Below the pieces are notes generated by a model. That model worked only from the letters and a program-made list of their open reading frames with translations, did no database searches and was not told the DNA's origin. DNA of 64,000 nt, taken from NCBI GenBank assembly GCA_020161505.1, contig JAIUNY010000004.1, positions 62,001 through 126,000 of the forward strand, given 5' to 3'. A program made the translations under genes and the position numbers. Origin of the DNA: Armatimonadota bacterium. Lineage in GTDB: Bacteria; Armatimonadota; Fimbriimonadia; Fimbriimonadales; Fimbriimonadaceae. Positions 5,629 to 63,717 of the stretch are shown piece by piece; within the stretch, counting starts at the first letter, position 1, and the number at the start of each line of letters is the position of its first letter.

Positions 5629-6540
5629 TTAATCCACAGTCGGCCGATGGGCCAAGGCGTGAGCAAGGACATCTAAAACATGTTGCCTTTCGGCTCCTTC
5701 CAGGCCCAGGCGAGGCAGACGAACGGTTTCAGATCCCATGCCCAACTCTTGAATGACCAGCTTGATGTTCTGGACAAACTTTGTTCCGACATCGAGGTGG
5801 AGGAGTGGGGTGTACCAGCGATAGAGTTCAAGCGCGGCATCCCACTGCTTGGCCATCATCAGATCCCAGAGCTTCTGATTCTCCTTGGGGAAGGCGAGAC
5901 CAATTCCCGCAATCCATCCCGTCGCGCCCAGCATTGCACATTCCAGTGCAAGGTCATCGACGCCTGCGAAGATGGTAAAGCGGTTCCCCGCGTGGTTAAA
6001 GATGTCGGTAATGCGGCGAACATCTCCGCTCGATTCCTTCACCGCCACCATCTGATCCAACTCCCCTAACTCAGCGAGCATATCCGGCGTGATATCTACA
6101 TGATAAGCTAAGGGGTTGTTGTAGATAATAAACGGCTTATCCGTCGCTCCGGCGACGGTTCGGTAATGAGCTAAGGTTTCGCCTCGATCGGCTCGGTATG
6201 CCATACAGGGGAGCAACATATATCCGTCTGCTCCTGCCGCCTCGGCGGCGCGGACATAGTCACACGCTGCCCCGGTATTCAGTTCGCTCACCCCGCTGAC
6301 GACCGGGATCTTGCCGTTCGCCACCGATTTCGCAACACGAATCACTTCGAGCTTTTCTTCCCGATTCAAGGCGTTGTTCTCCCCAAGAGAGCCCAGCATC
6401 ACGAACCCCGCGACCCCCGAATCAAGCAGGATCTGGAGGTGAGCCCCGGTGGCATCGAGGTTCAGCGATCCATCGGCGTGAAATTGGGTCGTGGCGGCGG
6501 GAAAGACATCTCTCCAATCAGAACCAGGCAGGGCAGGCAT
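5629..6540 (-). CDS. 1-pyrroline-4-hydroxy-2-carboxylate deaminase (DapA family)
   Basis: Schiff-base lyase of the dihydrodipicolinate synthase family. In this operon it should deaminate and dehydrate 1-pyrroline-4-hydroxy-2-carboxylate to alpha-ketoglutarate semialdehyde. The 303-residue TIM barrel has the lysine at 168 (MVAVKESSGD), the tyrosine at 140 (IIYNNPLAYHVD) and GSLGEN in place of the GTTGE of true DapA. It is the first gene of the operon; the intergenic stretch to the divergent small genes at 6751 should hold the promoter. The reaction is assigned from context and family, not from specificity residues. Confidence 0.85.
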   Translation of the reverse strand: MPALPGSDWRDVFPAATTQFHADGSLNLDATGAHLQILLDSGVAGFVMLGSLGENNALNREEKLEVIRVAKSVANGKIPVVSGVSELNTGAACDYVRAAEAAGADGYMLLPCMAYRADRGETLAHYRTVAGATDKPFIIYNNPLAYHVDITPDMLAELGELDQMVAVKESSGDVRRITDIFNHAGNRFTIFAGVDDLALECAMLGATGWIAGIGLAFPKENQKLWDLMMAKQWDAALELYRWYTPLLHLDVGTKFVQNIKLVIQELGMGSETVRLPRLGLEGAERQHVLDVLAHALAHRPTVD

Positions 6541-6750
6541 AGCGTTCTCACGTTACCTCTATGCCGATTCGCTGGGCAACCGGAACGGGATGCAACGGCG
6601 AAGTGCGCGGCGCGTACCGATGCTATGGAGCGCATTCAGCTCTGGATCCGGAATCATTCACCCAGGTCCTTCTTGAGACGATGCATGGTCTGGCCCTCGG
6701 AGTTCTCGAATTCCTTGCGTCACTCATCCTCGGAACCTGACAACTTGACC

Positions 6751-6903
6751 ATGAGCATTTGGAACGACGAGAATGAATCGTGGAGAGACCGGCTCGGACT
6801 CGACCAAGCAGTGGCTTTCCTCGGTGCCCTTTGGAAGATCGTGACCTGGCCGATTCGGGCTTTGGCGAATCTTCCGCACTGGCTCATCAACTTCTTCAAC
6901 TGA
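6751..6903 (+). CDS. Small Trp-rich protein, unknown (copy 1)
   Basis: A 50-residue reading frame: charged start MSIWNDENESWRDRLG, then an amphipathic to hydrophobic half with ALWKIVTWPIRALANLPHW and end LINFFN. No strong ribosome binding site is visible. Support comes from the neighbouring 53-residue frame at 6923, which has the same layout (charged N-terminus, then LW-x-hydrophobic-P-x-R, then a Trp/Phe end). A membrane-surface peptide or a small envelope-associated protein is possible; the function is unknown. Confidence 0.45.
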   Translation: MSIWNDENESWRDRLGLDQAVAFLGALWKIVTWPIRALANLPHWLINFFN

Positions 6904-7120: not shown

Positions 7121-7540
7121 ATGGCAAAAACGGTGGCGATTATTGCGGCTCAGTGGAACGAGCTAGTGGTCAATGCTCTGGTCGAAGGGGCGGTGGACAC
7201 GCTTCAATCCAGCGGCTACGAATCCGTGGTCATCCGTGTGCCGGGAACTTGGGAAATCCCGCTTGTCGCCCAAAAGGCACTCTCCAGCCATGTGGGAGTC
7301 GTGGCCCTCGGCTGCATTCTGCAAGGAGCCACCACCCACGCCGCTCTGCTCGCCGGAGATGTCAGCTCCGCGCTCATGAAGCTCCAACTGGAATCGGGCA
7401 AGCCGATTTCCTGGGGGATCCTCACGCCGGAAACTCAGGAGCAAGCATTCGAGCGAGCGGGAATGAAGCTCGGCAACAAAGGTCGAGAAGCCGCCGGGGC
7501 ACTCGTCGACAGTCTGCGCGTGCTCGATTCGCTCAGCTGA
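7121..7540 (+). CDS. ribH: 6,7-dimethyl-8-ribityllumazine synthase
   Basis: Condenses 5-amino-6-ribitylamino-uracil with 3,4-dihydroxy-2-butanone 4-phosphate, the penultimate step of riboflavin synthesis. The 139-residue length is normal. Motifs are AAQWNELV at 9-16, the substrate loop VPGTWEIPL at 40-48, LGCILQGATTH with the catalytic His at 73, and SWGILTPETQEQA followed by GNKGREAA. The usual RGET turn is QGAT here. No FMN riboswitch was recognised upstream, and other rib genes are not in the window. Confidence 0.92.
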   Translation: MAKTVAIIAAQWNELVVNALVEGAVDTLQSSGYESVVIRVPGTWEIPLVAQKALSSHVGVVALGCILQGATTHAALLAGDVSSALMKLQLESGKPISWGILTPETQEQAFERAGMKLGNKGREAAGALVDSLRVLDSLS

Positions 7541-7617
7541 GTCGGCGCATCTAGCCAAAAGGGCCGGATTTCCCTCGAACCGGGAGTGTCCAGCGGTCTG
7601 AAAACGTCTGGATCATC

Positions 7618-8337
7618 ATGACGACCGCACTTGTGCTGGCGAGCCTTGCCCAGACTCAACGCGATATTCCGACCCAAGTTGTGCCGAGCGTGCCGACCTT
7701 CGTCCACACGGTTCCCGCCGATGCCAACGCCAAGGACTTTCAGCCTGCAACGACCCAGCTCCACACGGTCACGGTCACGCTGAGCAAGGAAACGGCGACG
7801 ATCGAGACGGTGACGCTCTTCCGCAACCCCAATGCCACGGCGCTCATGGGCACGCTGCGCATGCCCTTCTTCAGCCACGGATTCAGCCCTCGGGCAACGG
7901 GCGAAATCACCGCGACCTGGAACAAAGGCCCGATGACAGGAGGGCGACGGGTGAACGACACGACCCTCGTGATGCCAGGGAAGACCGACGCGGTGGTGCC
8001 CACCCAGGGTGCAGTTTACGAGTGGCCGGGGGCGATCCCGGCAAAGGGCACAGGAACCCTGCGCACCAGTTTCCAGATCCCCCTCGCGAAGGTGGCGCTC
8101 GGGCAAACAGCGCGACAATTTGCCCTCCACATTCCCCCGATGTCGGCTCCGACCGAACAGCTCCAGGTGGCGATCAAGTTCTCCCCCGAGATCGTGTTTG
8201 GCGTGCTCAACAGCCAAGGCCCGTTCGGCACGTTCCAAACCGGCCCGAACGGATCCTTCGCCAAGTGGGATGGCAAAACCGCAACCAAGGAAGGCTATGT
8301 GCTCTTCCGGTTCTATCCCAACGAAGTCGGCGGCTAA
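7618..8337 (+). CDS. Secreted protein of unknown function
   Basis: A 239-residue protein with a short hydrophobic N-terminus (MTTALVLASLAQTQ) that could be a signal peptide with little n-region. The rest is rich in Thr, Pro and Val and appears all-beta, with phrases such as LHTVTVTLSKETATIETVTLFRNP cut by glycine turns. It contains no cysteine. It stands alone between ribH and the convergent cheW gene. No family recognised. Confidence 0.65.
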   Translation: MTTALVLASLAQTQRDIPTQVVPSVPTFVHTVPADANAKDFQPATTQLHTVTVTLSKETATIETVTLFRNPNATALMGTLRMPFFSHGFSPRATGEITATWNKGPMTGGRRVNDTTLVMPGKTDAVVPTQGAVYEWPGAIPAKGTGTLRTSFQIPLAKVALGQTARQFALHIPPMSAPTEQLQVAIKFSPEIVFGVLNSQGPFGTFQTGPNGSFAKWDGKTATKEGYVLFRFYPNEVGG

Positions 8338-10082: not shown

Positions 10083-10499
10083 TTAGGTATTCAGCACGCG
10101 TTCGGCGAGGATCACGGCGGCCCAATCGTCAACCGGCTGCGGAGGCACCTGCATCGTGGCGGGCAGAATACGCCGCCAGCCTCGGCGAGGATTGTGCTCC
10201 CAGTACCGCTCGCGGGCTTGCATCGTGGTATCGCGCTCGTCCACCACGAGAATCCCGATGCTCGGCATCGCATCCCGCAGAGCTTCGACAACGGCACGAG
10301 ACTTCGTTCCCGATCCGACCACGATCATGCTGAAAGTGGAATCTTCGTGAGCCTCATGGGCGATTTCCGCGACTTGTTCCTGAGGGACAATCCATCGCGA
10401 CAGCACATGAATCACGTCCATGTCGTCACGACGCACCAGGGCTACCCCGCATTTGGAGTGGCCTGGATCAATGGCAAGTACAGTCTTGTCCCCCAACAT
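10083..10499 (-). CDS. RNase H-fold protein, YqgF/RuvX-like
   Basis: A 138-residue protein with the start VLAIDPGHSKCGVALV (first acidic residue of the RNase H fold), a middle VVDERDTTMQARERY that matches the DER-T motif of YqgF/RuvX, and PVDDWAAVILAE near the end for the last acidic residue. This is a variant of the pre-16S nuclease/Holliday-junction resolvase-like family. It closes a minus-strand run with DUF3084 and the Lpt genes, 19 bases after DUF3084. Nuclease activity is inferred. Confidence 0.75.
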   Translation of the reverse strand: MLGDKTVLAIDPGHSKCGVALVRRDDMDVIHVLSRWIVPQEQVAEIAHEAHEDSTFSMIVVGSGTKSRAVVEALRDAMPSIGILVVDERDTTMQARERYWEHNPRRGWRRILPATMQVPPQPVDDWAAVILAERVLNT

Positions 10500-10518: not shown

Positions 10519-12039
10519 TTATGGCCTGAGACGGAAGGAGAGTCTCAGGGGATCGCCGTTCATTGTATCGTCGGAAGCCAGTAGCTGCACCCTCACCTTT
10601 CGTCCGTAAGTCTTGATCCGCGAGACCATGTCGAAGAGCTGGAGCGTGGAGAGCTGCCCAATCACAGGGTCGCGACCAAGGGCCGGTACCATGCCATCGG
10701 TGATGGCCTTTTGGGTGAGGTTTTGTTGGACAAACTTGATGATTTCGTCGGCGATCGCCGCCTCGTCTTTACTCCCATCCGCCATCACGGTGAGGACAAC
10801 TTCCTCTTTGTCATAGACCTTCTCATAGGGGAAGATGTCGAGCCGGAGTGGGACAAATTCTTCTTCAAATGAGTTCACGTGGGCCCGTGCGACAAGGAGT
10901 CTCGGCTCCTTGCCGCCTACCAGGCGATTGATGACTGCGTTGAGCTGAGCCTCCGGAGAAACCCCGTTTTCTGGCACCAAGCCCGCGTATTCACCCTCGA
11001 ATGTCGAGGCGGCGCCGCGTTGCATGGCTTCGCGCCGGGCTTGCTGGATCAGAGTGTTCACCGCGTTGCGCGCCTCCGCCAGGTTCGGTTGATCGCGGAG
11101 CACGGTGCGCGAGAGCTCATCGCTGCGATTGTAGATCAGGCTGTTGAAGCGGGTTGCTCCGATTTTCCCTTCAAAGAACTCGGTGCTCGCCTGGGCCTGG
11201 CGGAGCCGTTCTCGCTGGGCTTCGAGTTCCCGCGTTGCCTTGGTCAGATCTTCGTTCACCCGGCGCAGATCGGCCTGGTTGCTCGCAATTTGAGAGTTGA
11301 ACCGCTCTTCCGCCGCCTTCGAAGCCTCGTTCAGACGCACATACTCCGCTTCCAATGACCCGAATTTTTTGGTGAGTTGATCAAGATCTCGGGTCAGAGC
11401 CGCCTCTTGAGCGGTCAGTTGGAGGTTCCGTTTCAGGAGTTCTTGGTTGTCGTTGGTGCGCGAACCGAGTACGGCCTCGGCGCGCTTGATCTCGGTTTGG
11501 AGCTTGTCGCGCTGGGTCGCAAACTCGCCCACCTGACCCTTGAGGTTGCCGACCTGACCTTGGAACGTGCGAACTTCTCCCAGGAGCCCGCGTGCCTCGG
11601 CGGTGAGCTTGGAGTTCTGCTCCTGGGCGTTTTTGAGGCTGACCACCCGGTCGGCAAGGCTCTTGGACGTCTGATTCAGAGTCTTCTCTTTGCCTTCTAA
11701 GTCGCCGCGCAGGGCTTCGGTTTGAGCTTGTGCGTCGGAAAGCTCCTTGTTTTTCGTCTCCAGATTCTTCTCGACCACCGCGAGCTGTTCTCGCGCTTTC
11801 GTGCCTTCCAGGATCCAGACTCGGACGGGCTCGGCGATTGCAAACAGGACGAGGATCGTGAGCAAGGTGCCGAGCATCCCGGCGAAGAAGGTGCCGAGCG
11901 CAGCGGTGTGCTTCGGGCGAAGGCGGCCCCATTTCAGCTTCTTCTTTCCGATGCTCCGACCGATGTGGTCGCCGGCGTACGCGACGCCGCCTCCCACCAG
12001 GATCATCACAAGCAGAAAGAGCAAGCTGACCGGGCTCAC
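10519..12039 (-). CDS. DUF3084 membrane-anchored coiled-coil protein
   Basis: A 506-residue protein with two N-terminal membrane segments (about 3-23 and 46-72), then a long coiled coil (about 75-310, heptad-rich with many Glu, Gln, Lys and Leu). A globular C-terminal part of about 190 residues starts near FFEGKIGATRFNSLIYN. This is the architecture of DUF3084 proteins known from cyanobacteria. Its start overlaps the end of the LptF/G gene by four bases, so it is co-translated with the Lpt genes. The coiled coil facing the periplasm may have a structural role in the envelope; this is inference. Confidence 0.8.
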   Translation of the reverse strand: MSPVSLLFLLVMILVGGGVAYAGDHIGRSIGKKKLKWGRLRPKHTAALGTFFAGMLGTLLTILVLFAIAEPVRVWILEGTKAREQLAVVEKNLETKNKELSDAQAQTEALRGDLEGKEKTLNQTSKSLADRVVSLKNAQEQNSKLTAEARGLLGEVRTFQGQVGNLKGQVGEFATQRDKLQTEIKRAEAVLGSRTNDNQELLKRNLQLTAQEAALTRDLDQLTKKFGSLEAEYVRLNEASKAAEERFNSQIASNQADLRRVNEDLTKATRELEAQRERLRQAQASTEFFEGKIGATRFNSLIYNRSDELSRTVLRDQPNLAEARNAVNTLIQQARREAMQRGAASTFEGEYAGLVPENGVSPEAQLNAVINRLVGGKEPRLLVARAHVNSFEEEFVPLRLDIFPYEKVYDKEEVVLTVMADGSKDEAAIADEIIKFVQQNLTQKAITDGMVPALGRDPVIGQLSTLQLFDMVSRIKTYGRKVRVQLLASDDTMNGDPLRLSFRLRP

Positions 12040-20845: not shown

Positions 20846-21289
20846 TCACCACTGGTTATAGGGAATCCCGTTGGAGCCCACTTCCGTGCTGTTGATGTGG
20901 ATCGCGCTCTTGCCGTTGTTTCCCGAGTTGTAACCGTAGGCGTTCTGAAAAATGGGGTCGGTCTTCAGGGGGCGGCGCAAGTATGGCCCTCTCCACTTGG
21001 TGGGGTCGAGCGGCACGGAGGGCCAGTTCAATCCCATTCGATAGCGAATCTTGCCTTGAGCGGGGGGTGTGGTACTGGAGAGATCGCTCAGGCTGTGCAT
21101 GACCAATCCCGTGTCGAGATACATCATCTCCATGGCCAGCCGCATGGCTTCCAGCTCTTCACGAGCGACCGCTTCTCGGGCCCTGAGCTGCGAGCGATCC
21201 CAGCTCAAGATCGCGCTTCCGGTGAGGGTGAACACGATGGACATCGTGATCATGGTTTCAACCAAGGTGGCTCCGCGACGCTTCTTCAT
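20846..21289 (-). CDS. Type II secretion/type IV pseudopilin-like protein
   Basis: A 147-residue prepilin with a basic leader KKRRGA and processed helix TLVETMITMSIVFTLTGSAILSW, including the Glu at +5. The soluble part ends GNNGKSAIHINSTEVGSNGIPYNQW. It starts 5 bases after the stop of the upstream pseudopilin gene, and both proteins end in G-[IT]-PYN-x-W, so they are tandem relatives. ATG 21289 is preferred over TTG 21301. Confidence 0.82.
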   Translation of the reverse strand: MKKRRGATLVETMITMSIVFTLTGSAILSWDRSQLRAREAVAREELEAMRLAMEMMYLDTGLVMHSLSDLSSTTPPAQGKIRYRMGLNWPSVPLDPTKWRGPYLRRPLKTDPIFQNAYGYNSGNNGKSAIHINSTEVGSNGIPYNQW

Positions 21290-21294
21290 GCTTA

Positions 21295-21747
21295 TCACCA
21301 AGTGTTGTAGGGTGTGCCGTCAATGGAAACTGATCCGCTGCTCAGCCAGATCGGGCTCTGGTTCGTTTCTCGCCCGATATTGGAGTTGTAGACAAAACTG
21401 ACTCCGGGAACCCTGCTCACCGGCATCTGGCGGATGTAGGGGCCATTCCAGTGCCCCGCCTCGATGGGTCGCTGAACCCAACCCCGACCGGTTCCGAGAT
21501 CCATCCAGCCCCAACTGGGGGGATTCGCGCTCGCCAGAGCTTCGATGGAGGGCGGTCCGATGCCAAGGGTGTCGACTTTGCAGGCTTCGTATGCCCGACG
21601 CAAGGCCTCCAGATCGCCCCGGAGTTTCGTCTCACTCGCTCGTTGGCGGGCCTTGGTCAGGGAAGGCATGACGACCGCCATGAGCGCGCCCGTGATGAGC
21701 ACGACAATCATGACCTCGACCAATGTGAACGCCCGACCCTTTCGCAT
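21295..21747 (-). CDS. Type II secretion/type IV pseudopilin-like protein
   Basis: A 150-residue prepilin: leader MRKGRA, cleavage before FTLVEVMIVVLITGALMAVV with Glu at +5, then the usual amphipathic helix KARQRASETKLRGDLEALRRAYEAC. The head has the repeated WMDLGTGRGWVQRP and GPYIRQMPVSR phrases and ends DGTPYNTW. The first ORF of a two-gene pseudopilin pair; no secretin or ATPase is nearby, so they likely serve a system encoded elsewhere. Confidence 0.85.
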   Translation of the reverse strand: MRKGRAFTLVEVMIVVLITGALMAVVMPSLTKARQRASETKLRGDLEALRRAYEACKVDTLGIGPPSIEALASANPPSWGWMDLGTGRGWVQRPIEAGHWNGPYIRQMPVSRVPGVSFVYNSNIGRETNQSPIWLSSGSVSIDGTPYNTW

Positions 21748-21885: not shown

Positions 21886-23007
21886 ATGTTTGGTGTTTTT
21901 TGGAGAGTTGGCTTTGCCAGCGTTTGTGTGATTTCCCTTGCTTCGGTCGCCTCGGCGCAGAGACTGCGCGTGGCGTCTTGGAACATTTCTGACTACGACG
22001 GCACCGACCGCGCTTCCGCGATTCAGACCTCGGTCTTTGGGAGTTTCCAGGGTCGATCGATGTCCCCGGATGTGCTTTTCGCGCAAGAGATTCAGTCGAC
22101 CAGCGCCGCAAACACGCTGAAGAACCTTCTCAATTCAGCTTCTGGCTCCACGGGAGATTGGGCGGTGACCTGGGGCAATATCACGGGCACGAACGCCAGC
22201 GCCAATGCCTCCGACACCGCGATGTTCTATCGCACGAGCAAAGTGACGGCTCTGAGCCCGGTCAAGGTCTCCAACGATGGCGGCACCAGCGGCCCGCCGC
22301 GCGAAACCTGGCGATTCGATTTCCGCATCAACGACAACGCGGTGATCGGCGAAACCTTCTCGGTTTACAATGTCCACATGAAGTCGGGCAGCAGCACCGA
22401 CGACCAGAATCGACGAAACCTCGAAGCCCAAGCCATCCGCAACAACGCGAACATCGTGGGGGCGACCAACCAGATCATGGTTCTCGGCGATTTCAACTGG
22501 CAGACGTCAAGCCAAGCCGCCTTCCAAACCCTTGCTGGATCCGCCGCGAACAACAACGGCCGCTTCTTCGATCCGATCAACACTCTTGGCTCGTGGAACA
22601 ACAACAGCAACTTCCGATTCGTCCACACCCAAGATCCGACCGGCAACGGCGGAATGGATGATCGTCTCGACGCGATCATGATGGGGGGCAAGTTCGGTGA
22701 CGGTGTCGGCACCGAATACGACGGTGCTTTTGGCGTCGCCTACAGCACCACCACCTGGAACGACAGCAATCACAGCTACCGCGCATGGGGCAACGACGGC
22801 ACCAGCTTCGACGACGAACTGACGACCACCGGCAACACGATGGTCGGCTCCACGATCGCTCAGGCCCTGAAAAACACGGCGGGAGTCAACGGTGGCCACC
22901 TTCCCGTGTTCCTGGATGTGCGCTACGACGTCGTTCCGGAGCCCGCGACGATGGCCTTGCTCGGCCTTGGCCTGGCAGCTGCCGCGCGCAAACGTCGCAA
23001 GAACTGA
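21886..23007 (+). CDS. PEP-CTERM endonuclease/exonuclease/phosphatase-fold protein
   Basis: A 373-residue exported protein. A signal peptide (GFASVCVISLASVASAQ) is followed by an endonuclease/exonuclease/phosphatase domain: LRVASWNISDYDG, LFAQEIQ (Glu metal ligand), FSVYNVHMKSGSS (His), VLGDFNW (Asp and Asn) and GGHLPVFLDV near the end (His). The C-terminus VVPEPATMALLGLGLAAAARKRRKN carries a PEP-CTERM sorting signal: PEP motif, membrane helix, basic tail. The protein is therefore expected to be handled by an exosortase and displayed or released. An extracellular nuclease is likely; a phosphodiesterase of other type is possible. Confidence 0.85.
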   Translation: MFGVFWRVGFASVCVISLASVASAQRLRVASWNISDYDGTDRASAIQTSVFGSFQGRSMSPDVLFAQEIQSTSAANTLKNLLNSASGSTGDWAVTWGNITGTNASANASDTAMFYRTSKVTALSPVKVSNDGGTSGPPRETWRFDFRINDNAVIGETFSVYNVHMKSGSSTDDQNRRNLEAQAIRNNANIVGATNQIMVLGDFNWQTSSQAAFQTLAGSAANNNGRFFDPINTLGSWNNNSNFRFVHTQDPTGNGGMDDRLDAIMMGGKFGDGVGTEYDGAFGVAYSTTTWNDSNHSYRAWGNDGTSFDDELTTTGNTMVGSTIAQALKNTAGVNGGHLPVFLDVRYDVVPEPATMALLGLGLAAAARKRRKN

Positions 23008-23156: not shown

Positions 23157-24071
23157 ATGGCCCAGCGCCTGCCCGAGTGGCTGACAATCCGACTCCCCCG
23201 ACCTGACACGATCAAGCAGGTCGAGCAGATGATGCGAGGCAAGAACCTCCACACTGTCTGCGAAAGTGCTCGCTGCCCCAACCTGCCGGAGTGCTGGAGC
23301 AAGAAAACCGCCACCTTCATGATCCTGGGTGACACCTGCACGCGAAGCTGCGGGTTTTGCGCGATCAAAGTCGGCAAAGGTCTGGAAGTCGATCCATTCG
23401 AGCCGCTCAACGTCGCCAAAACCACCAAGGAACTCGGCCTGAAGCACGTGGTCGTCACCAGCGTGGCCCGCGACGACCTGAAGGACGAGGGTGCCGGACA
23501 GTTTGCCCGCACCATCAATGCCTTGCACAAAGAGCTGCCCCATGTGATTGTCGAGGTTCTCACGCCGGACTTCAAGGGCAAGGAAGAGTGCATCCGCACG
23601 GTCTGCGAAGCTCACCCGGAAATTTACAACCACAACATCGAAACCGTCGAGCGGCTCCACACCATTGTGCGACCGCAAGCCAAATACAGCCGCACGATGC
23701 GTCTGTTGGAAATGGTCAAGGAGATCGACCCCACCATCTACACCAAGTCCGGCCTCATGCTTGGCTTGGGCGAGACGAAGGACGAAGTCATCAAGACTCT
23801 CCAAGACCTGCGCAACCTCGGCGTCGATGCGATCACGATTGGCCAGTATCTGCGCCCCACGATGAAGCACCTTCCCGTCGTGGAATACATCCACCCCGAC
23901 GTTTTCGCGGAATACGAGACGATCGGTGGGGAAATGGGCTTCGCCTTCGTCGCCAGCGGCCCGTTCATCCGGTCGAGCTACAACGCGATTGCCTTCAGCG
24001 AAAAGGTCATGGCCGAGCGTCTCGAGCGAGCCAACGATGATCGTCCGGCTGAGCAGCTGCGCGTGCTGTGA
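23157..24071 (+). CDS. lipA: Lipoyl synthase
   Basis: Radical-SAM enzyme inserting two sulfurs into octanoyl groups on carrier proteins. The 304 residues carry the auxiliary cluster motif CESARCPNLPEC (Cys35, Cys40, Cys46), the radical-SAM triad CTRSCGFC (Cys61, Cys65, Cys68), and the C-terminal RSSYNA with the serine that binds the auxiliary cluster. The chain ends RPAEQLRVL. The last codons are echoed in frame about 1.5 kb downstream (see 25529-25558). Confidence 0.96.
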   Translation: MAQRLPEWLTIRLPRPDTIKQVEQMMRGKNLHTVCESARCPNLPECWSKKTATFMILGDTCTRSCGFCAIKVGKGLEVDPFEPLNVAKTTKELGLKHVVVTSVARDDLKDEGAGQFARTINALHKELPHVIVEVLTPDFKGKEECIRTVCEAHPEIYNHNIETVERLHTIVRPQAKYSRTMRLLEMVKEIDPTIYTKSGLMLGLGETKDEVIKTLQDLRNLGVDAITIGQYLRPTMKHLPVVEYIHPDVFAEYETIGGEMGFAFVASGPFIRSSYNAIAFSEKVMAERLERANDDRPAEQLRVL

Positions 24072-24153
24072 CGGCTTTCCGAACCTAACGGGCGAAATTC
24101 CCTGATTCCCGTCAGAGGATTCCAGGCACGCCTTGGGTATAAAGACCCCCCCG

Positions 24154-24181
24154 TTTCAGGTCAGTCGCCGACTCCTATAAT
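24154..24181 (+). promoter_or_regulatory. Promoter of the orphan gene after lipA
   Basis: A perfect -10 box TATAAT at 24176-24181, with TTTCAG at 24154-24159 as a poor -35 box and 16-base spacing. It lies about 50 bases before the TTG start of the next gene, so that gene has its own promoter rather than reading through from lipA. Confidence 0.55.
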
Positions 24182-24229
24182 CATTACTATGCGGAGAGCC
24201 TTACGTTCAATTCCCAGTGGAGAAAGACC

Positions 24230-25399
24230 TTGAAAAGCAACAAGTTAGTCGTTTGGTTGGCACTGAGCCTTCCTTTTGCCGGGATCGGACTGGCGACACT
24301 GATGTCGCCCCTCGTAAGGGCAGTTCCGATGCCGGTCGCCAGTCCGGTGCTTCCTGCGTGTTGTTCTGCGCTACCCGACGACGAGCCGGGTGATCTGCTC
24401 GAAGGAACAAAGATTAAAGCGGGAAGCCAGTATCAAATGGTCATTGGTATAGCTGGAACAAGCCCAGCCGGCACCTGGACAGCTCGATATGGCACGGTGT
24501 CTTCAACCGGCATGTATACCGCGCCAAGCTTCATGCCGCCCTATGCTGAAGACATGGTGATGTTCGAGTCAGCTACGGGTTGGATCAGTGAGACTCGTAT
24601 TCTGGTCGAGGCCAATCCAGCTATTCCGGGAACCGATGGTCCCCGATACGTTCAAGTTGAGTTTGGAGTTGGTCAGCCTGGCTTTAGCCTGATGCAACAA
24701 GCCGTTGTCGTGCAGGGATCGAGCAAGTCGGTCATCGCCGGGGGAACCCTCGAGTCGATTGTTGATGACTATCCGGATCTGCCGCTGGTTACGCCAGGTC
24801 AAGATGTTCAAGGGATGCCTGAGCTTTTCGACTGCGTCGATGCTCCTGTTGTGAATGACAATCCACTGACAGATATCGTCGATACGGCGGAGGCTGACCT
24901 TGTGGTGCAGGAAAGCCGGGACATTTACGCACTTGTACCTGCAAATACTCCGACTGCCAGTAAGCCGAAAATCTGCAAGATCGGCGTGACGACTGGCCCG
25001 GGCAAAGAACTCCAAGGCAAACGTTGCTCTGGCGGGCAGAAGATTGTGGAAGAAACGACAACGTATGGGCCCGTGGCCGAGGGAGTAGAGACTGGTCAAA
25101 TCCAGTTCACGGCCGCTGCTCAAGCTGCACTCGGCGCGAAAGGTGCGGCAGAACTTGGCTTTGGATTCGAGGTTGGCGTCTCGTATCCACTAACACGGAA
25201 GCTCTACCGGTACGGTCAACGCCATATTACGGAGGTGTTTAAGTGCATCAACGGTGTATGGACATACTCGCATTCGAGAGTTTGCCGTCGTACTGGCCAC
25301 GGTCAAGTGACATCTCCGAAATGGGCTGGATTTATCGATGGTTACCCCATTAACGGGGATCCCGCCCCAGATTTGTGGACCACTTGGATTTGTAACTAG
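24230..25399 (+). CDS. Orphan secreted protein with Ig-like N-terminal part
   Basis: A 389-residue protein. TTG 24230 has GGAGAAAG from 24219 at good distance. A signal sequence (LVVWLALSLPFAGIGLATLMS) is followed by PACCSALP. Residues about 65-130 resemble the bacterial Ig-like motif GTVSSTGMYTAPSFMPP. The middle is acidic and Pro-rich. The last 100 residues contain CKIG, KRCSGGQK, FKCINGVW, SRVCRR and end WICN, an even number of cysteines suited to disulfides. Base composition is lower in GC than the flanks. No family recognised; the gene is bounded by lipA and a lipA-like relic. Confidence 0.65.
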   Translation: MKSNKLVVWLALSLPFAGIGLATLMSPLVRAVPMPVASPVLPACCSALPDDEPGDLLEGTKIKAGSQYQMVIGIAGTSPAGTWTARYGTVSSTGMYTAPSFMPPYAEDMVMFESATGWISETRILVEANPAIPGTDGPRYVQVEFGVGQPGFSLMQQAVVVQGSSKSVIAGGTLESIVDDYPDLPLVTPGQDVQGMPELFDCVDAPVVNDNPLTDIVDTAEADLVVQESRDIYALVPANTPTASKPKICKIGVTTGPGKELQGKRCSGGQKIVEETTTYGPVAEGVETGQIQFTAAAQAALGAKGAAELGFGFEVGVSYPLTRKLYRYGQRHITEVFKCINGVWTYSHSRVCRRTGHGQVTSPKWAGFIDGYPINGDPAPDLWTTWICN

Positions 25400-25420
25400 C
25401 TAGACTGCCAATAGAATAAT

Positions 25421-25454
25421 AAGGTTCGCCTTTCAAGCCTGAGAGGCGAACCTT
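25421..25454 (+). terminator. Hairpin terminator after the orphan gene
   Basis: Perfect 11-bp inverted repeat AAGGTTCGCCT / AGGCGAACCTT with a 12-base loop, 22 bases after the stop codon. There is no T-run on the plus strand; the minus strand shows ATTATTCTAT after the stem. It probably ends the transcript of the orphan gene. Confidence 0.65.
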
Positions 25455-25528
25455 ATGGTTCGTTTCGTGGAGCTCAAATCGAATGCTCCATCCGAACACC
25501 ACCGTAACCCTCACTTTTCTGCGAACTA

Positions 25529-25558
25529 CGCCCTGTCGAGCAACTGCGCGTGCTTTAA
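25529..25558 (+). pseudogene. Relic of a lipA 3' end
   Basis: The stretch reads in frame RPVEQLRVL then TAA, against RPAEQLRVL then TGA at the true lipA end. Bases 25538-25554 match lipA 24051-24067 at 16 of 17 positions, and most of the other differences are at third codon positions. The frame is closed by TAA at 25505, so only about 16 codons survive. Best explained as a leftover second lipA end that marks the boundary of an inserted or exchanged block; chance similarity is unlikely but was not calculated. Confidence 0.5.
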
Positions 25559-25704
25559 AGTTCAGCCTGCGACTTTACCGTCGCGTACGAGCTCAGCTTT
25601 GCCTTGGTCTTCGAGAGCCTCGTGTTCCTCGGACGTACTTTCGTGCGCGCGGCCCTTGATGTTTTTCTTATCTCTTAGCGCAATCTATCGATACTGTTGC
25701 CGTT

Positions 25705-25720: not shown

Positions 25721-25798
25721 TCAATATGCACCAAAATCGACCCAGAATCATCCATGTCGCTATAGAGCGATCTTGTGGTCATACCGACAATTTTGCCT

Positions 25799-28072
25799 AT
25801 GTTTGGCAGGAGCTTGTCTAAGAGGTTTTCTGGATATGCAACTATTGTCGGTGCAACACTGCTCGTCAGTGTCTGTTTCCTCTCCTATCGGTTCGCCGCA
25901 GAGGCCCTTCAGGAGCGAGTCGTGGAGCAGGCGATCACGGTGGCCCAGAAGAACGCGCAGTACGTCGATACCGTCTTCACGGGAGCCAAATCGACCGCTG
26001 ATGCCATTGCGGTGAGGCAAGGAACTCGGGATCAGAAGCGTCAGCCGGACGATCCGCCGTTCTTTGCGCAACTCCTGGAAGAGTCCCCGAAAGAGGTCTT
26101 CGGCGTCTATTTCGTCCCGGAGAATGTGCCCTGGAATCACCCACAGTGCGGCACGTACATCACTCGGTCGACAACCCCGAAAATTGCCCCCTCAACCTAC
26201 GACCACCAGAGCGAAGACCAAGACTGGTATTGGATACCAAAAACGGAAAAACATTCCTTTATCACAGGGGCTTATTACGATTCTGATGCCTCTATTACCA
26301 TGGTTTCTTACACGAGACCAGTGTTCAATACTCGCAAGGAATTGATGGGCGTCGCTGGTGTTGATCTCTCCCTGGACACGATCCAGAGCATGACCAACGC
26401 GATGAAGATTTCCTTAGACGGGCAAGATCCGGCGGAACAAACGGCGATCCTTGTGGATGCGGCAGGCATGGTCATCTCGCACCCCGATAAATCGCTTCTG
26501 GCCGGGGAAGAGAAGGAGCCTCAGAGCTTTTCCGAGCTCCCGATTGCGTCCAACGTGGATCTCAAGCAAGCCAAGGGATTCACCTGGGCGGATAATCATC
26601 TCGTCGTTTGGTCGACCTCCGAGTTCACCGGCTGGACGACCGTGCTCAAGGTGCCGTCGCACCACATCATGAGTCAGCTTGTCCCACTGCGGAACATGAC
26701 TGTAGGTGTCTCACTGGCCGGGATTGTTCTCCTCTGGATCATCACCGCCTCGCTTGCTCGTCGAGTGGCCGGTCCGCTGGTGGGCATCACCCAATCCGTT
26801 GAAAGACTGGCCCTGGGCGATTGCACCATGGAGTTTTCCGTCACCTCTCGTGACGAAGTGGGGGCACTGGCCAGTGCCTTGAACAAAGCCACCGATCACC
26901 TGCGGTCAGTCGCCAAAGTCGCCACCAATCTGGCCGAGGGCGATCTTCAACAGGAAGTCGCGGTTCGTGACCAAACCGACCTCGTCTCGCACAGCATCCG
27001 AGATGTCATCGGAAGTTGGCGTACCAACATGTCGGTGCTCCAGCGAAACTGCTCATTCCTCGATGAGTCCGGCAAGGAGCTCTCGGAGTCCTCGGAGGAG
27101 TGCCACCAAGTCGCCGAGCATGTCGAGCACGCGATCGTTCAGGCCTCGGGCGCGATGGTGAATGTGACTGAAGGCAGCTACCACATTGTCACTTCAACCT
27201 CAGAACTCGAGCAACGGCTCGCCGCGCTCTCCGATCATTTCCGGGTGATTCAGGAGTCGAGCGAAATCGCCGCAGGAGAAGTAGGAGATCAGCTCAACAA
27301 GACGCGTGAATCGGAGTTGCTCATCAGTGAAGCCGTCTTGATCATTGATCAACTGCGTAGCGAGCTGACGGAGTGCGTGCGCTTCGCGGAAATGGCCGTC
27401 GCCGAAGTGAGGGCACTGAGCGAGAGCGAGTCGTCGATTCGTGCAATCACAGAAACCCTGGCGGAGATCAGCTCGAAGGTAAGGCTCCTCGCTCTCAATG
27501 CATCGATTGAGGCCGCGCGGGCTGGCGATGCGGGCAAGGGCTTCGCTGTCGTGGCGGCGGAAGTCGGGAATCTCGCGGAACAGTCGGCGAGCTCAACAAG
27601 TCTCGTTGATTCGGTTCTCAAAGGCGTTCGGGAACGGATTCTTTCGGTGGAGTCTGGCGTTGTGCAAACTCAAGAGGCCATCCAGCTTGGTCAGCAGACC
27701 TCGGAGCGAAGCCAGGAGACCATGCGAGAAGTCACGCGGATCCTCAGTTTGGTCCAAGTGGGTGCCGTGCGTGTGCAGTCGGCTACCGATCAGCAGCTCC
27801 AGGTGGTTCAGGAAGGCAAGGCCTCTCTCGATGAAATGAAGGCGCACTGCCAACAGAACACCGAGACGGCGGAACGAATGAGCGATGCTGTTGTCGAGGT
27901 TCACTCCGACCTCCAGCAAGTTCAGGAAACCTGTACGAGGCTCTCGGATACTTCCCAGAATCTGCTCCGCCTTGCCCAAGCGGTGACGCAGTCTTCAGAA
28001 GACCTCACCGAAGTGGTCAGCCACTTCAAGCTCCCCCACTCGGGCGGAGACTCCGCCTCTCAGGCTGCTTAG
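25799..28072 (+). CDS. Methyl-accepting chemotaxis protein with Cache sensor domain
   Basis: A 757-residue transmembrane receptor. Order: first membrane segment about 9-33 ([18 protein letters not shown]), a periplasmic double-Cache sensor about 35-300 ([29 protein letters not shown]), second membrane segment about 308-328, a HAMP domain ([20 protein letters not shown]), then a long signalling coiled coil with the hairpin tip region near [36 protein letters not shown] (given in pieces: [19 protein letters not shown]). The ligand is unknown; Cache domains usually bind small organic molecules. ATG 25799 is preferred over GTG 25775. No other chemotaxis gene is adjacent; cheW is at 8.4 kb. Confidence 0.93.
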
Positions 28073-28378: not shown

Positions 28379-30109
28379 ATGAGCACCCTTACATTTTCAC
28401 AACTCCCGATTTCCGCTGATCTTGTCCAGAAACTGGAAAAGATGGGCATCACCGAGCCGACCCCGATCCAAGCCGCCGCGATTCCGGTGGCCTGCGAAGG
28501 GAAGGATCTCATCGGTCTGGCCCAAACCGGAACGGGCAAAACCCTCGCCTTCTCCCTCCCCATGCTGTCTCGCCTGCAAGAGGGCGAAGTCGGCCTGATC
28601 CTCGCTCCGACTCGCGAACTTGCGCAGCAGATCGAAGAGACCCTCTTCAAACTGGGAGTCAGCAGCGCGCTCATCGTGGGCGGCGCGGCCATGAGCAACC
28701 AGCTCCGCGCCCTCAAGCGACGACCGCAAGTTCTCGTCGCCACCCCAGGCCGACTGATCGACCACCTCGAGCAACGCACCATCCGACTCAATCGCATCAG
28801 CGTGGTCATCCTCGACGAGGCTGACCGGATGCTCGACATGGGATTCGCCCCCGCGATCAAGCGCATCCTGGCGCAGGTTACCGGCGATCACCAAACGATG
28901 CTCTTCAGCGCAACCATGCCGCAGGAGATCGAGGACATCGCGCAGAACTTCCTCAACAATCCCGAGCGGATTGAAGTTGACCGACCGGGCAATGCTCCGG
29001 ATCTGGTCGAGCAAGAGCTGATCATTGTTCACTTTGAAGAAAAGCACAGCATTCTGGAGATGCTCCTTGATGAGAACCGAGGCACGGTGCTCGTGTTCGC
29101 GCGAACCCGCCACGGAGCCCGCAAGCTCGCCAAGGCAATCCGCGACATGGGGCACACGGCGGCGGAAATCCACGCTGACCGCACCCTTGCCCAACGCCGT
29201 GAAGCCATGCACGGATTCAAGACCGGAGTCTTCCGCGTCCTCGTTGCCACCGATATCGCCGCACGCGGTATCGACGTGAAGGACATCTCCCTGGTCGTCA
29301 ACTTTGACCTGCCCGAGAACAGTGAGGACTACCTCCACCGCATTGGTCGAACCGGCCGCGCCGGAGCATCCGGTGTCGCGATCACTCTGGCCCTTGCCAA
29401 CCAAACGAAGCAGATTCGGCAAATCGAACGACTTCTCGGTCGCCGCATGGATATCTCGCCGCGAAGCACGGCTGCCGGAGCCGCTGTCGCCGACGGTCGC
29501 AAGCCTCGCACCGGATCCTTTGGCAACTTGCCAGGCCGATCCGAGCGCAAACCGCGACAGGATCGTCCGTCGCGCCAAGACTTCGCCCCGCGCGCCGAGC
29601 GCCCGGCTCGCGAAGAGTGGGCGCCTCGTCCCGAGCGGCAAGAGCGTCAGGAATGGGCACCGCGACCAGAACGGCAAGAGCGTCAGGAATGGGCGCCTCG
29701 TCCGGAACGACAACCCCGCCAAGACTGGGCCCCGCGCGAAGATCGCCCCGCCGCATTCGATCGCTCCGACCGCCCCGCGCGACAACCGCGACCGGAACCG
29801 ACCTACGAAGTCTCCCGCGAACCGCGTGGCCCACGATGGGACAAGAAGCCGGGAGGTCGCTACCAAGGCGATCCTTCGCACCGAATGGGTCACGTCTCCG
29901 GACAGAATTCGGGCCATGGCCCCCGGAACGACGAGCGCGGAGGGGCCGATACTCCGTTCCTCGCCGGTGCGCCGATTCATCGACCGCCGACCACGGTGAC
30001 GGGCCGACCTCACCCGAAGGCAGGCGGGCCTCGCCACAAGGGCAAGCACAAGCCGGCCGCCGCGCCCTGGCACAAGGGTAAGCCCAAGGCCAAGAAGCGC
30101 GTCCGCTAA
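28379..30109 (+). CDS. DEAD-box RNA helicase with Arg-rich repeat tail
   Basis: ATP-dependent RNA unwinding, probably in ribosome assembly or mRNA decay. The helicase core is about 1-360: Q motif (GITEPTPIQ), motif I AQTGTGKT at 48-55, PTRELAQQ, DEADRMLDMGF, SATMPQ, and HRIGRTGRAG. Residues about 365-576 form a disordered tail rich in Arg, Pro, Glu and Gly. A tandem unit of 12 residues (36 bases, first at 29636, again at 29672) gives repeats of ERQEWAPRP type. The end is Lys-rich (HKGKPKAKKRVR). The tail likely binds RNA or helps condensate formation, as in other RhlE-type proteins. Confidence 0.93.
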   Translation: MSTLTFSQLPISADLVQKLEKMGITEPTPIQAAAIPVACEGKDLIGLAQTGTGKTLAFSLPMLSRLQEGEVGLILAPTRELAQQIEETLFKLGVSSALIVGGAAMSNQLRALKRRPQVLVATPGRLIDHLEQRTIRLNRISVVILDEADRMLDMGFAPAIKRILAQVTGDHQTMLFSATMPQEIEDIAQNFLNNPERIEVDRPGNAPDLVEQELIIVHFEEKHSILEMLLDENRGTVLVFARTRHGARKLAKAIRDMGHTAAEIHADRTLAQRREAMHGFKTGVFRVLVATDIAARGIDVKDISLVVNFDLPENSEDYLHRIGRTGRAGASGVAITLALANQTKQIRQIERLLGRRMDISPRSTAAGAAVADGRKPRTGSFGNLPGRSERKPRQDRPSRQDFAPRAERPAREEWAPRPERQERQEWAPRPERQERQEWAPRPERQPRQDWAPREDRPAAFDRSDRPARQPRPEPTYEVSREPRGPRWDKKPGGRYQGDPSHRMGHVSGQNSGHGPRNDERGGADTPFLAGAPIHRPPTTVTGRPHPKAGGPRHKGKHKPAAAPWHKGKPKAKKRVR

Positions 30110-55673: not shown

Positions 55674-57164
55674 TTAGTTCTCGAGGACTCGGGTCTCGGT
55701 TTCCTGGACGCGGAGGATCATCTTGACGCCCACGCTTCCGCCACCAGCGGCTGGGCCGCCACCGAATCCGCCACCAGGGCCGCCTCGACCGTCACCGCCA
55801 CCCGGAGCTCCCGGAGGGGCGAATCCAGACGGGGCTCGCTGCATGAATCGCTCGACCGGCTTCCACTCGGAGAGGAAGTCGCCGATGAATCGGATGGGGA
55901 TGTTTCGCTTGTCGGCTCCTGCGGAAGCTCCGCCGCCACCGCCGCCGCCCGCACCTTGGAATCCAGTGGGGCCACCGAGCGGAGGTCCGCCGGCATTGCC
56001 GCCACCACCGCCGCCGCCGGATCCGGCCATTTCAACAATGGACTCTTGGATCGTCGTGCGCTCTTCCCGAACGAGAATGCCTCGGTCGAGAGCAATCCAC
56101 ATCACGGAGCTGATCTTGATGGACTGGGCTTCGCCTTGCTGTCCGCCGAGGTTTTGAACACCTCGCAGCTCGTTCGCACCGACGGAGATTTCAGATCGGA
56201 TCTTGGCGCAGGGGATTCCTCGCTCCCATTCGACACTTTCCAGAGTTGCGCGACCCGGGAGGTTGCGCACCATGGTGTTGACCTCGTTGATCTTGCTCAT
56301 GTCCAGAATGCCTTCTGGCATTGCTGCGGCCCAGCTATCCGAAACCTGAACGGTTCGGCTCGGGAGCACCGGGAGGGGGAACAGAGCATAGAGATCCATC
56401 CGGAAGGATTCACCGGACGTGCCCTCAAGCGGAACATAGATCGGAGCGGAGCTGAAGACTTCGCGACCGGTGCTCGAGACCCGCATGAAGATCGGGTGCA
56501 TCTCGTAGTCCATGTACTTCTTGGGCTCCGTCTCGCCAGCCACGACGAGCATGGCGTAATCCTTACCCTTGTCGGGGAGTGCTTGCAGGCGGATGAGTCC
56601 GTCGCCGTTGGGATACACGTTCTCCATGGCGACGAGGTAGCGGAACTTCATCTCATCGACCGGGATCAGCGGCATGCGGCTTCCGAGCTGCGCTTGACCT
56701 TGGGTGATGAGACCGACTTCGGCACCGAGGCGGACGTTGTAAATCAACTCGCGGCCTGGAGTGAATCGGTAGCGGATGTTGAACCCGTCCGGCTTCGTGA
56801 TGCTGGTGGAGTTGTCCAGCGTCACATTCACCGAGGATCGATCCATAATTTGCGGAGCAGATTCGCTGGCTTGGTACAGCACCACTTCGATTTTCATCGG
56901 GCCATCGGGCAGAAGGCGCTTCTTGGTATCAAGCTTGTAAACGTAGTCGTTCCCTTCAATGTCGGGGACAACCGCTTCCAGGAACTTGCCATTCACGAGG
57001 ACGGCCAGGTACTGCCCCTCGCCCATGGAGTTCTTCGGAATGCGGACACTCACGACCTCGCGAACGCGAGCCCCATCTTGAGGTCGGCGGATCGTGAACG
57101 TACCCTGGGCAAAAGCACTGCCCATCAGGATGGTCGCCATGGCAACGGCCAAAATTTTCTTCAT
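55674..57164 (-). CDS. Gly-rich exported protein, unknown
   Basis: A 496-residue protein. ATG 57164 gives a clean signal peptide (KKILAVAMATILMGSAFAQ). Residues about 20-370 are beta-rich (RYRFTPGRELIYNVRLGAEVG; FRYLVAMENVYPNGDGLIRL; TLESVEWERGIPCAKIRSE) and resemble DUF6263-type secreted proteins. Residues about 380-425 and 455-485 are Gly-rich linkers (SGGGGGGGNAGGPPLGG; GGDGRGGPGGGFGGGPA), separated by NIPIRFIGDFLSEWKPV. Gly-rich tails may anchor the protein in the matrix. The gene is divergent from pcrA. Confidence 0.7.
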   Translation of the reverse strand: MKKILAVAMATILMGSAFAQGTFTIRRPQDGARVREVVSVRIPKNSMGEGQYLAVLVNGKFLEAVVPDIEGNDYVYKLDTKKRLLPDGPMKIEVVLYQASESAPQIMDRSSVNVTLDNSTSITKPDGFNIRYRFTPGRELIYNVRLGAEVGLITQGQAQLGSRMPLIPVDEMKFRYLVAMENVYPNGDGLIRLQALPDKGKDYAMLVVAGETEPKKYMDYEMHPIFMRVSSTGREVFSSAPIYVPLEGTSGESFRMDLYALFPLPVLPSRTVQVSDSWAAAMPEGILDMSKINEVNTMVRNLPGRATLESVEWERGIPCAKIRSEISVGANELRGVQNLGGQQGEAQSIKISSVMWIALDRGILVREERTTIQESIVEMAGSGGGGGGGNAGGPPLGGPTGFQGAGGGGGGGASAGADKRNIPIRFIGDFLSEWKPVERFMQRAPSGFAPPGAPGGGDGRGGPGGGFGGGPAAGGGSVGVKMILRVQETETRVLEN

Positions 57165-61887: not shown

Positions 61888-63717
61888 TCAGTTGCCGGAT
61901 TGCGGCAGAACGCTCGGCGGAGGAATCGGAAGGTCTTCTTGCTTGTTGCCGCCGGTGGCGAGATCGGTGGCATCGCCGGTCTTGGGCGCGCCTCCGGTGC
62001 TCGGTGCTGTGCTCGTCGCTCCGGTCTTGTCAGCCTCTTCGGCCTTCTTCAGCTCAGCTTCTTCCTTCTTCAGACGCTCAGCTTCTTCCTTCGCGGCGGC
62101 ATCGGCAGCCGCCTTGGCTTCGGCTTCCTGCTTTTGATATTCGGCCTTCTCCGTCAACCAGCGATCGAGCTCGGCCTTCACCAGGTCATGCTGCTCTTGC
62201 GTGTAGTGCTTTTCCTTCAGCCCGGCCCCGTTGATCTGACTGATTTGGGAATAGAGCGACTCGCCCATCTGGTCGTAATCCGAGTTGAACTGGGCAACCT
62301 GGAGCAAGAAGTCGTGGCTGTCTTGATACCGCTTTTGCTCGTACAGGAACTGCGCGGCACTTAGTCGCAACGTGGGATCTTCGTACTCTTCCAGCACCCC
62401 ACTGATGGCTTCGAGGCGGGCATCCACCATCTCGATACGTTCGGCTGTGGTGGAAATGGAGTAAAGCTCCTCGGTCAATTTGTAGCGCGTGAGCTTGTTG
62501 AACCGAGCATCAATACTCGCGTCTGTAGTGTTGACCTTGTCCAGAAGCTCCGTCACCTTCGTCTTGAAGTCGGCTTGGTTGCTCCGAACTTCCTGGTCGT
62601 TGAGCAACCGGGTGGAAGCATAAAGATTCTCAAGGCCAGCATCGGCAAACTTGAGAGCCGCGCTATCAATGGCGGCTTCAATCGCTTCTTGGAGCTTCTG
62701 CTGAGCTCGGCCTTGCTGAGCGTTCTTCAGAAGTTCTGCCTTGTTCTTCTCAAAATCCTTCGGGAGATTCGGTGCGGCCTTGGTGAGCTTGAACAGAGCG
62801 GGGGAGCCGTTCTGGTTGATGACCTCAGAAACCTCACCCGGCTTCAGGGACAGCAGAGCCTTGAGGTCAGACTGCGATTCCACGGTAGCGCGGGGCAGGG
62901 TGACCTGTCGATCTTGCTCGGTCGATTTGGGCCAATACTTCTTTTGGGTGGCACCAAAGTCGGCACCGCCCTTGATCTCATCGAGAGCCTTGATGGCATC
63001 GTCTTCGCGCACCGAGATGTCCTTGGCAAGATCATTGAACCGGATGATCTGGAAGGTGAGATCGGTGTAGGAATTCTTGAGATCTTCTTCGGTGTACTTC
63101 TCTGCGGCTTGGAACTTCTCCAGGGCACCGTACATCAACAGCTGTGGCTCCACGCTTGGGCGCTTGGCGGCATCGTTGTAAGCCTCGACAAACTGGGTGA
63201 CGAGTTCGCCCTTCCACTCTGCCAGAGTCTTTCCACCCAGCATCGGCTTCAAAAGCTCGTCGATCTTCTGGGGCGTGGCGTCCAGCGGGATCATGCCAGA
63301 CATTTGCATCTGCGCAACCTGTCCGCGTGAGAACTCTTCGGCCATCTTTTCCGCGATGGGTTTCACGGTCTCGGCAGTCAGAACAACGCCCTTCTCTTTC
63401 GCGATCTGGCGCATCGCGCTCTCTTGCACCATTTGCACGAGCGTGGAACCGGTGATGGTGTATTCGCCATCCGGAGTTCCGCGCCCGCTGGTGCCTTGCA
63501 TGCGGTCGTGGTTGGTATTCACGCGGTCGTTGAACTCTTCAACTCCCACCTTGCGCCCGTTGATGGTGACCAGCGCGACAACGTCTTGCTTTTCCTGCCC
63601 GGGAGTGAAGAAAGGCATCGAGAAGACCATGCCCAGGATCATGAGAAGCGCGATGACGCCAAGGAAGACTTGGCATCCTTTCTTCTCCATCAATTTACGA
63701 ATACTGACAATATCCAC
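61888..63717 (-). CDS. Membrane-anchored SurA/PpiD-like peptidylprolyl isomerase
   Basis: A 609-residue periplasmic chaperone. GTG 63717 is preferred with AAGGA at 63727-63731. One membrane segment (VFLGVIALLMILGMVFSMPFF) is followed by a SurA-type N-terminal helical domain (GRKVGVEEFNDRVN; IAKEKGVVLTAETVKPIAEKM), then a PpiC-like parvulin core about 210-300 (FNDLAKDISVREDDAIKAL; GGADFGATQKKYWPKS; LSLKPGEVSEVINQNGSPALFKL). A helical region and a Lys/Glu/Ala-rich coiled coil (AEAKAAADAAAKEEAERLKK) end in a Pro/Gly tail. Outer-membrane protein folding is likely. It is 8 bases from rsmI. Confidence 0.83.
   Translation of the reverse strand: MDIVSIRKLMEKKGCQVFLGVIALLMILGMVFSMPFFTPGQEKQDVVALVTINGRKVGVEEFNDRVNTNHDRMQGTSGRGTPDGEYTITGSTLVQMVQESAMRQIAKEKGVVLTAETVKPIAEKMAEEFSRGQVAQMQMSGMIPLDATPQKIDELLKPMLGGKTLAEWKGELVTQFVEAYNDAAKRPSVEPQLLMYGALEKFQAAEKYTEEDLKNSYTDLTFQIIRFNDLAKDISVREDDAIKALDEIKGGADFGATQKKYWPKSTEQDRQVTLPRATVESQSDLKALLSLKPGEVSEVINQNGSPALFKLTKAAPNLPKDFEKNKAELLKNAQQGRAQQKLQEAIEAAIDSAALKFADAGLENLYASTRLLNDQEVRSNQADFKTKVTELLDKVNTTDASIDARFNKLTRYKLTEELYSISTTAERIEMVDARLEAISGVLEEYEDPTLRLSAAQFLYEQKRYQDSHDFLLQVAQFNSDYDQMGESLYSQISQINGAGLKEKHYTQEQHDLVKAELDRWLTEKAEYQKQEAEAKAAADAAAKEEAERLKKEEAELKKAEEADKTGATSTAPSTGGAPKTGDATDLATGGNKQEDLPIPPPSVLPQSGN

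Follow-up and report, generated by a model that had tools for sequence, protein, structure and literature searches.

The window analysed here is a stretch of 64,000 nucleotides (positions 62001–126000 of contig C22) from an Armatimonadota genome of 3.14 Mb in 38 contigs. Its main features, all on the plus strand, are as follows.

23157..24071, plus strand: lipA, encoding lipoyl synthase (Radical_SAM and LIAS_N in Pfam; tail ...ERANDDRPAEQLRVL-stop; single copy)
24042..24071, plus strand: copy 1 of the repeat (repeat family D4), the final nine codons and stop codon of lipA
24176..24181, plus strand: TATAAT, a lone candidate −10 box read by eye, no −35 element being found
24230..25399, plus strand: gene for a predicted secreted protein of 389 amino acids (TTG start; GGAG at 24219–24222)
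25419..25456, plus strand: hairpin resembling an intrinsic terminator (17 pairs)
25529..25558, plus strand: copy 2 of the repeat, intergenic, a coincidence or a remnant of the lipA tail
25775..28072, plus strand: right-hand neighbour, a gene for a methyl-accepting chemotaxis protein (MCP; dCache, HAMP and MCPsignal in Pfam)

Both LipA domains scored above their Pfam cut-offs, and lipA counts as single copy because a search of the whole genome at E 0.001 matched nothing else. The gene was found in 57 of 61 genomes, none of which (0/57) carried a second match. Immediately upstream of lipA lies a gene encoding a PEP-CTERM-bearing protein of the endonuclease/exonuclease/phosphatase family (21886–23007).

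As the initial annotation had read, lipA ends in RPAEQLRVL-stop (stop codon at 24069–24071), positions 25529–25558 read RPVEQLRVL-stop, and 16 of 17 nucleotides match in the core of the repeat (24051–24067 versus 25538–25554). Over their full length the two copies share 23 of 30 nucleotides, with a longest identical run of 11 nt. The claimed excess of differences at third codon positions was also confirmed (5 of 7 mismatches; the binomial probability of at least 5 is arithmetically ~0.045), while the remaining two fall at codon position 2, one of them in the stop codon, which is kept. Outside these 30 nt, in the same register, each 20-nt step on both flanks gave only 2–9 matches, i.e. background. 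Allowing up to three mismatches, a 26-nt pattern combined from both copies fitted no other place in the 3.14-Mb genome; RPxEQLRVL-stop, present in both copies, was absent from 84 other genomes of the family with up to one mismatch allowed, and no lipA-tail pattern was detected in viral contigs. The two copies make a candidate direct repeat at the edges of the block between (23/30 nt with an 11-nt identical core), one that chance could also produce.

The gene at 24230–25399 had been credited with its own promoter, a hairpin terminator and no known family, and had been called an orphan. A promoter scan found nothing upstream of the gene, leaving TATAAT as the lone candidate. The hairpin terminator was confirmed, with a 17-bp stem in a segment (25405–25475) that folds at −34.6 kcal/mol (z −6.2). 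The protein had no hit in Pfam, NCBIfam or PADLOC and no significant one in PHROGs, but orphan status did not hold: single-sequence search retrieved relatives from 4 of 60 other genomes, and a six-row profile did so in 16 of the 112 others examined within the order, several of these being weak or partial. At single-sequence sensitivity six of the seven congeners gave no match, and the seventh encodes a 28%-identical homologue on a contig other than that of its lipA. Homologues in genomes G008 (two places), G035 and G007 are surrounded by other genes, and lipA was not seen in the stretches inspected. The second G008 copy (C166:6989–7888; L047 ~5990–6890) is interrupted by a stop codon and is apparently a decaying paralogue.

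An alignment of eight family members conserves W83, C266, G280, C339, G342, C352, P363 and C388. While a first structure model was poor (mean pLDDT 53.5), a better one (mean pLDDT 67.8) predicts an N-terminal hydrophobic helix, an Ig-like domain at residues ~57–130 and long strands at 270–362, the C-terminal part being beta-rich and containing cysteines. The predicted fold of residues ~57–130 resembles Ig-like domains of the BIG_2 type, e.g. PDB 7r3t (Z 5.1 over 67 residues at 2.3 Å) and 4hu8 (Z 5.7 over 70 residues at 2.2 Å, the best match to this model of mean pLDDT 67.8), with the differences that a Pfam match is lacking and that the comparison touched mainly the N-terminal half. Foldseek with the better model returned nothing at E ≤ 0.001 (best 2.7e-3, probability 0.15), no solved structure matched the protein by sequence, and no homologue was confirmed in viral contigs. 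The gene is a member of an unnamed family of putatively secreted proteins with a predicted Ig-like domain and a patchy distribution across the order; its product would be exported and may act at the cell surface.

The block is indeed AT-richer than its neighbour, as had been proposed: the gene at 24230–25399 has a G+C content of 0.546 and a GC3 of 0.541, versus 0.595 and 0.793 in lipA. The repeats do not, however, bound this compositional block. Low G+C begins at 24072, shows no edge at 25558 and still prevails in the first kilobase of the MCP gene; the composition falls after lipA and recovers ~1 kb past 25558, inside that gene, so that a shift is seen at one end of the repeat-flanked segment and not at both. 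A start-less 38-codon frame on the minus strand (25568–25681), which by eye resembled a fragment of the stress protein CsbD, was rejected: Pfam gave no match, the genome yielded no CsbD match, and 0 of 60 other genomes matched. The main points of the initial annotation stand, its 'promoter', 'orphan' and 'bounds' not being established.

The 1.77-kb block (taken with ~240 bases of right flank) had a full match in 0 of 84 other family genomes, and when block and flank were compared with 85 family genomes the only matches were to itself and to one stretch of 37 bases. The nearest lipA among the relatives compared is ~82% identical in DNA sequence. In all seven congeners lipA ends in LRVL plus one or two residues and is followed by DNA unlike that of the window and partly unlike that of the other congeners; in none of the seven does it run into sequence like that from 25559 onward. 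Copy 2 scored 14–15 against the congener lipA tails (shuffle mean 21–23), i.e. no match. The MCP gene (25775) had no match in the seven congeners at 1e-60, its closest relative (44% identity) belonging to a different genus. The next landmark, a DEAD-box helicase gene (28379), is present in all eight genomes of the genus including that of the window, and in the other seven none of its neighbours matches those found here. The C-terminal tail of this helicase (29500–30000) contains repeated RQEWAPRPERQ-like units. Homologues of genes upstream of lipA in the window (16788, 18348, 18860 and 20846–21747) flank lipA on both sides in several congeners.

Because the MCP gene, too, is missing from the congeners, the downstream side of lipA is rearranged, and the occurrence of homologues of the upstream genes on either side of lipA shows the same for the region. 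No congener has a comparable flank or site, so comparison with an empty site cannot decide between the readings considered below. The proposal that cargo had been inserted at the 3′ end of lipA is upheld as far as the DNA after lipA is accessory, and is not upheld for 25529–25558 as a target end carried or left behind. Two outcomes had been named beforehand as counting against the proposal, a block shared by relatives without a lipA-like end and a high match rate in shuffled sequence; neither was seen.

A match of 23/30 was obtained in none of 3000 dinucleotide shuffles of the 2 kb following lipA, and the local alignment score was reached in one of the 3000. Among the 54 gene ends of the window only lipA attained 23/30, as did 0 of 8100 shuffles (54 × 150). 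In real sequence the rate was 1 in 3936 disjoint 30-mers of the window, rising to 5 in 4762 overlapping 30-mers when the repeat-rich segment 29300–30300 was included, this segment being excluded from both the 3936-30-mer scan and the 2948-position scan described below. By arithmetic ~0.01–0.02 such matches are expected per window (0.014 from the 1/3936 rate) for this single pattern. Per gene end, the 23/30 match is rarer than chance (~1 in 4,000 real 30-mers; 0 of 8100 shuffles). In the scan of window 30-mers made with the 2948-position analysis, the sole place with a 23–24/30 match within 2 kb was 55950–55999, seen from both strands.

No other lipA end (0/83; best 21) reached 23/30; these ends, 84 with that of the window, came from 92 sources, seven being too short and the others unrecognised, and some loci represent one genome drawn from two collections. 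Among 787 control gene ends (duplicates and the window removed) none scored 22 or 23 and five scored at least 24. An earlier control of 743 ends had lacked the lipA of the window, since the greedy gene picker took an antisense frame, and had counted one locus twice (L040, L064). The distinct control hits of that size that were examined, five in number, comprise two gene pairs (one of paralogues, one of tandem pseudopilins), one long and one short-spaced repeat, and a CRISPR-like array. In the paralogue pair and the long repeat similarity runs well past the gene end, and in the pseudopilin pair the match lies mainly at the gene end. The pseudopilin (L040) and paralogue (L119) pairs resemble the window in that a gene end recurs within 2 kb, stop codon included; they differ in being tandem paralogues, whereas copy 2 has no lipA-like sequence on either side. 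Repeats seen near lipA in other genomes include, in Hyphomicrobium sulfonivorans, a downstream CRISPR-like array whose units are ~30 nt long (L108 ~7390–7650) and a ~150-nt direct repeat of ~94% identity in genome G006 (L040 ~10176–10325 and 11034–11183).

The rarity depends on how the question is put. With a 75-nt query from the end of lipA, 2 of 300 shuffles contained an equally good local match, and of 2948 positions drawn at random from the window 91 gave one; judged by these rates against those for the exact end, the match is unusual for the stated gene end and not for a free search. Coincidence also remains a live explanation because the repeat was singled out only once it had been seen, among many patterns that could have been noticed.

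We favour the reading that the repeat is a chance resemblance in a rearranged region, next to an accessory gene of an ordinary kind, at a probability only slightly above one half (~0.52), over the reading of copy 2 as a true scar of the lipA tail. Several observations lead to this preference: the similarity ends abruptly at 30 nt, unlike that in the paralogue pair and the long repeat; the congener tails miss copy 2 and G+C stays low past it; no tyrosine integrase (PF00589 profile) is encoded on contig C22, such genes being present only on C14, C19 and C25; the MCP gene is equally accessory; the inspected homologues of the secreted protein sit away from lipA; and matches to the 75-nt query are common. 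Against it stands the match at the exact gene end, an outlier by the 8100 shuffles and the 83 other lipA ends alike, together with the third-position bias, the retained stop codon, and the fact that the five controls scoring at least 24 are of the size of real repeats. Should copy 2 instead be a true relic, which we regard as a serious though lesser prospect, a diverged tail and the secreted-protein gene would have joined the chromosome at lipA, either by the action of an integrase that was later lost, or with homologous recombination inside lipA at the left end and an illegitimate junction at the right end. Copy 1 would then have arrived with the new DNA, and copy 2 would be the original tail that it displaced. 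The in-frame match with its stop codon, its codon-position bias and its rarity at gene ends speak for such a relic, as do the restriction of the pattern to two places in the genome, the lack of RPxEQLRVL-stop within one mismatch in the 84 family genomes and the AT-richer, accessory nature of the gene between. Identity of 77% over 30 nt with no longer homology, no integrase nearby, no empty site found and no compositional edge at 25558 speak against it; moreover, a mosaic test of lipA against nine relatives showed identity running along the gene without a step, bar the usual tail decay, and viral contigs lack the pattern. A more specific version is doubtful: that a 1.5-kb insertion lacking an integrase brought in the secreted-protein gene and a diverged lipA end, so that the host tail was replaced and survives as a 30-nt scar. 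It is likewise doubtful that lipA is an unreported target in Armatimonadota, whether for site-specific or for one-sided homologous recombination.

Islands of the SGI1 type integrate in the 3′ end of a conserved gene, trmE, and related ones in that of dusA, according to PMC8409611. The likeness to such islands is a conserved gene 3′ end at the left edge and a tail-like stretch beyond accessory DNA; the present locus differs in its 1.5-kb length, single gene, absent integrase, 77% tail identity and lack of a known empty site. A literature search found no paper tying lipoyl synthase to an integrase, attachment site and genomic island, and none with a title on integration at lipA or on elements of Fimbriimonadales. 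A reading of both 26-nt stretches as a short DNA motif, dispersed or functional, and not as a lipA tail is improbable: the GC-rich core partly recurs in the weak nearby repeats D12 and I2, but the genome has only two copies at up to three mismatches, too few for a dispersed repeat. Decay of a tandem lipA duplicate down to its final 30 nt would yield an in-frame tail with its stop codon, and is the least probable reading of all, since no lipA-like identity precedes copy 2, the place of the duplicate is occupied by the secreted-protein gene and its terminator, and a second lipA is found neither here nor in any of the 57 lipA-bearing genomes.

Under the favoured chance resemblance, lipA would have a tail ordinary for the genus, followed by a variable, rearranged stretch of chromosome in which an accessory gene for a secreted Ig-like protein is probably expressed independently from its own ribosome-binding site and ends at its own terminator, and copy 2 would be a functionless, coincidental likeness of 26–30 nt in the DNA that separates that terminator from the next gene. 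As the evidence stands, the locus offers a 30-nt in-frame echo, rare per gene end and too little to go on without an empty site. Were the relic real, it would name the 3′ end of lipA as an insertion target and would show single accessory genes entering gene-dense chromosomes without a resident integrase. The unnamed family of putatively secreted proteins in this order can be studied for its own sake.
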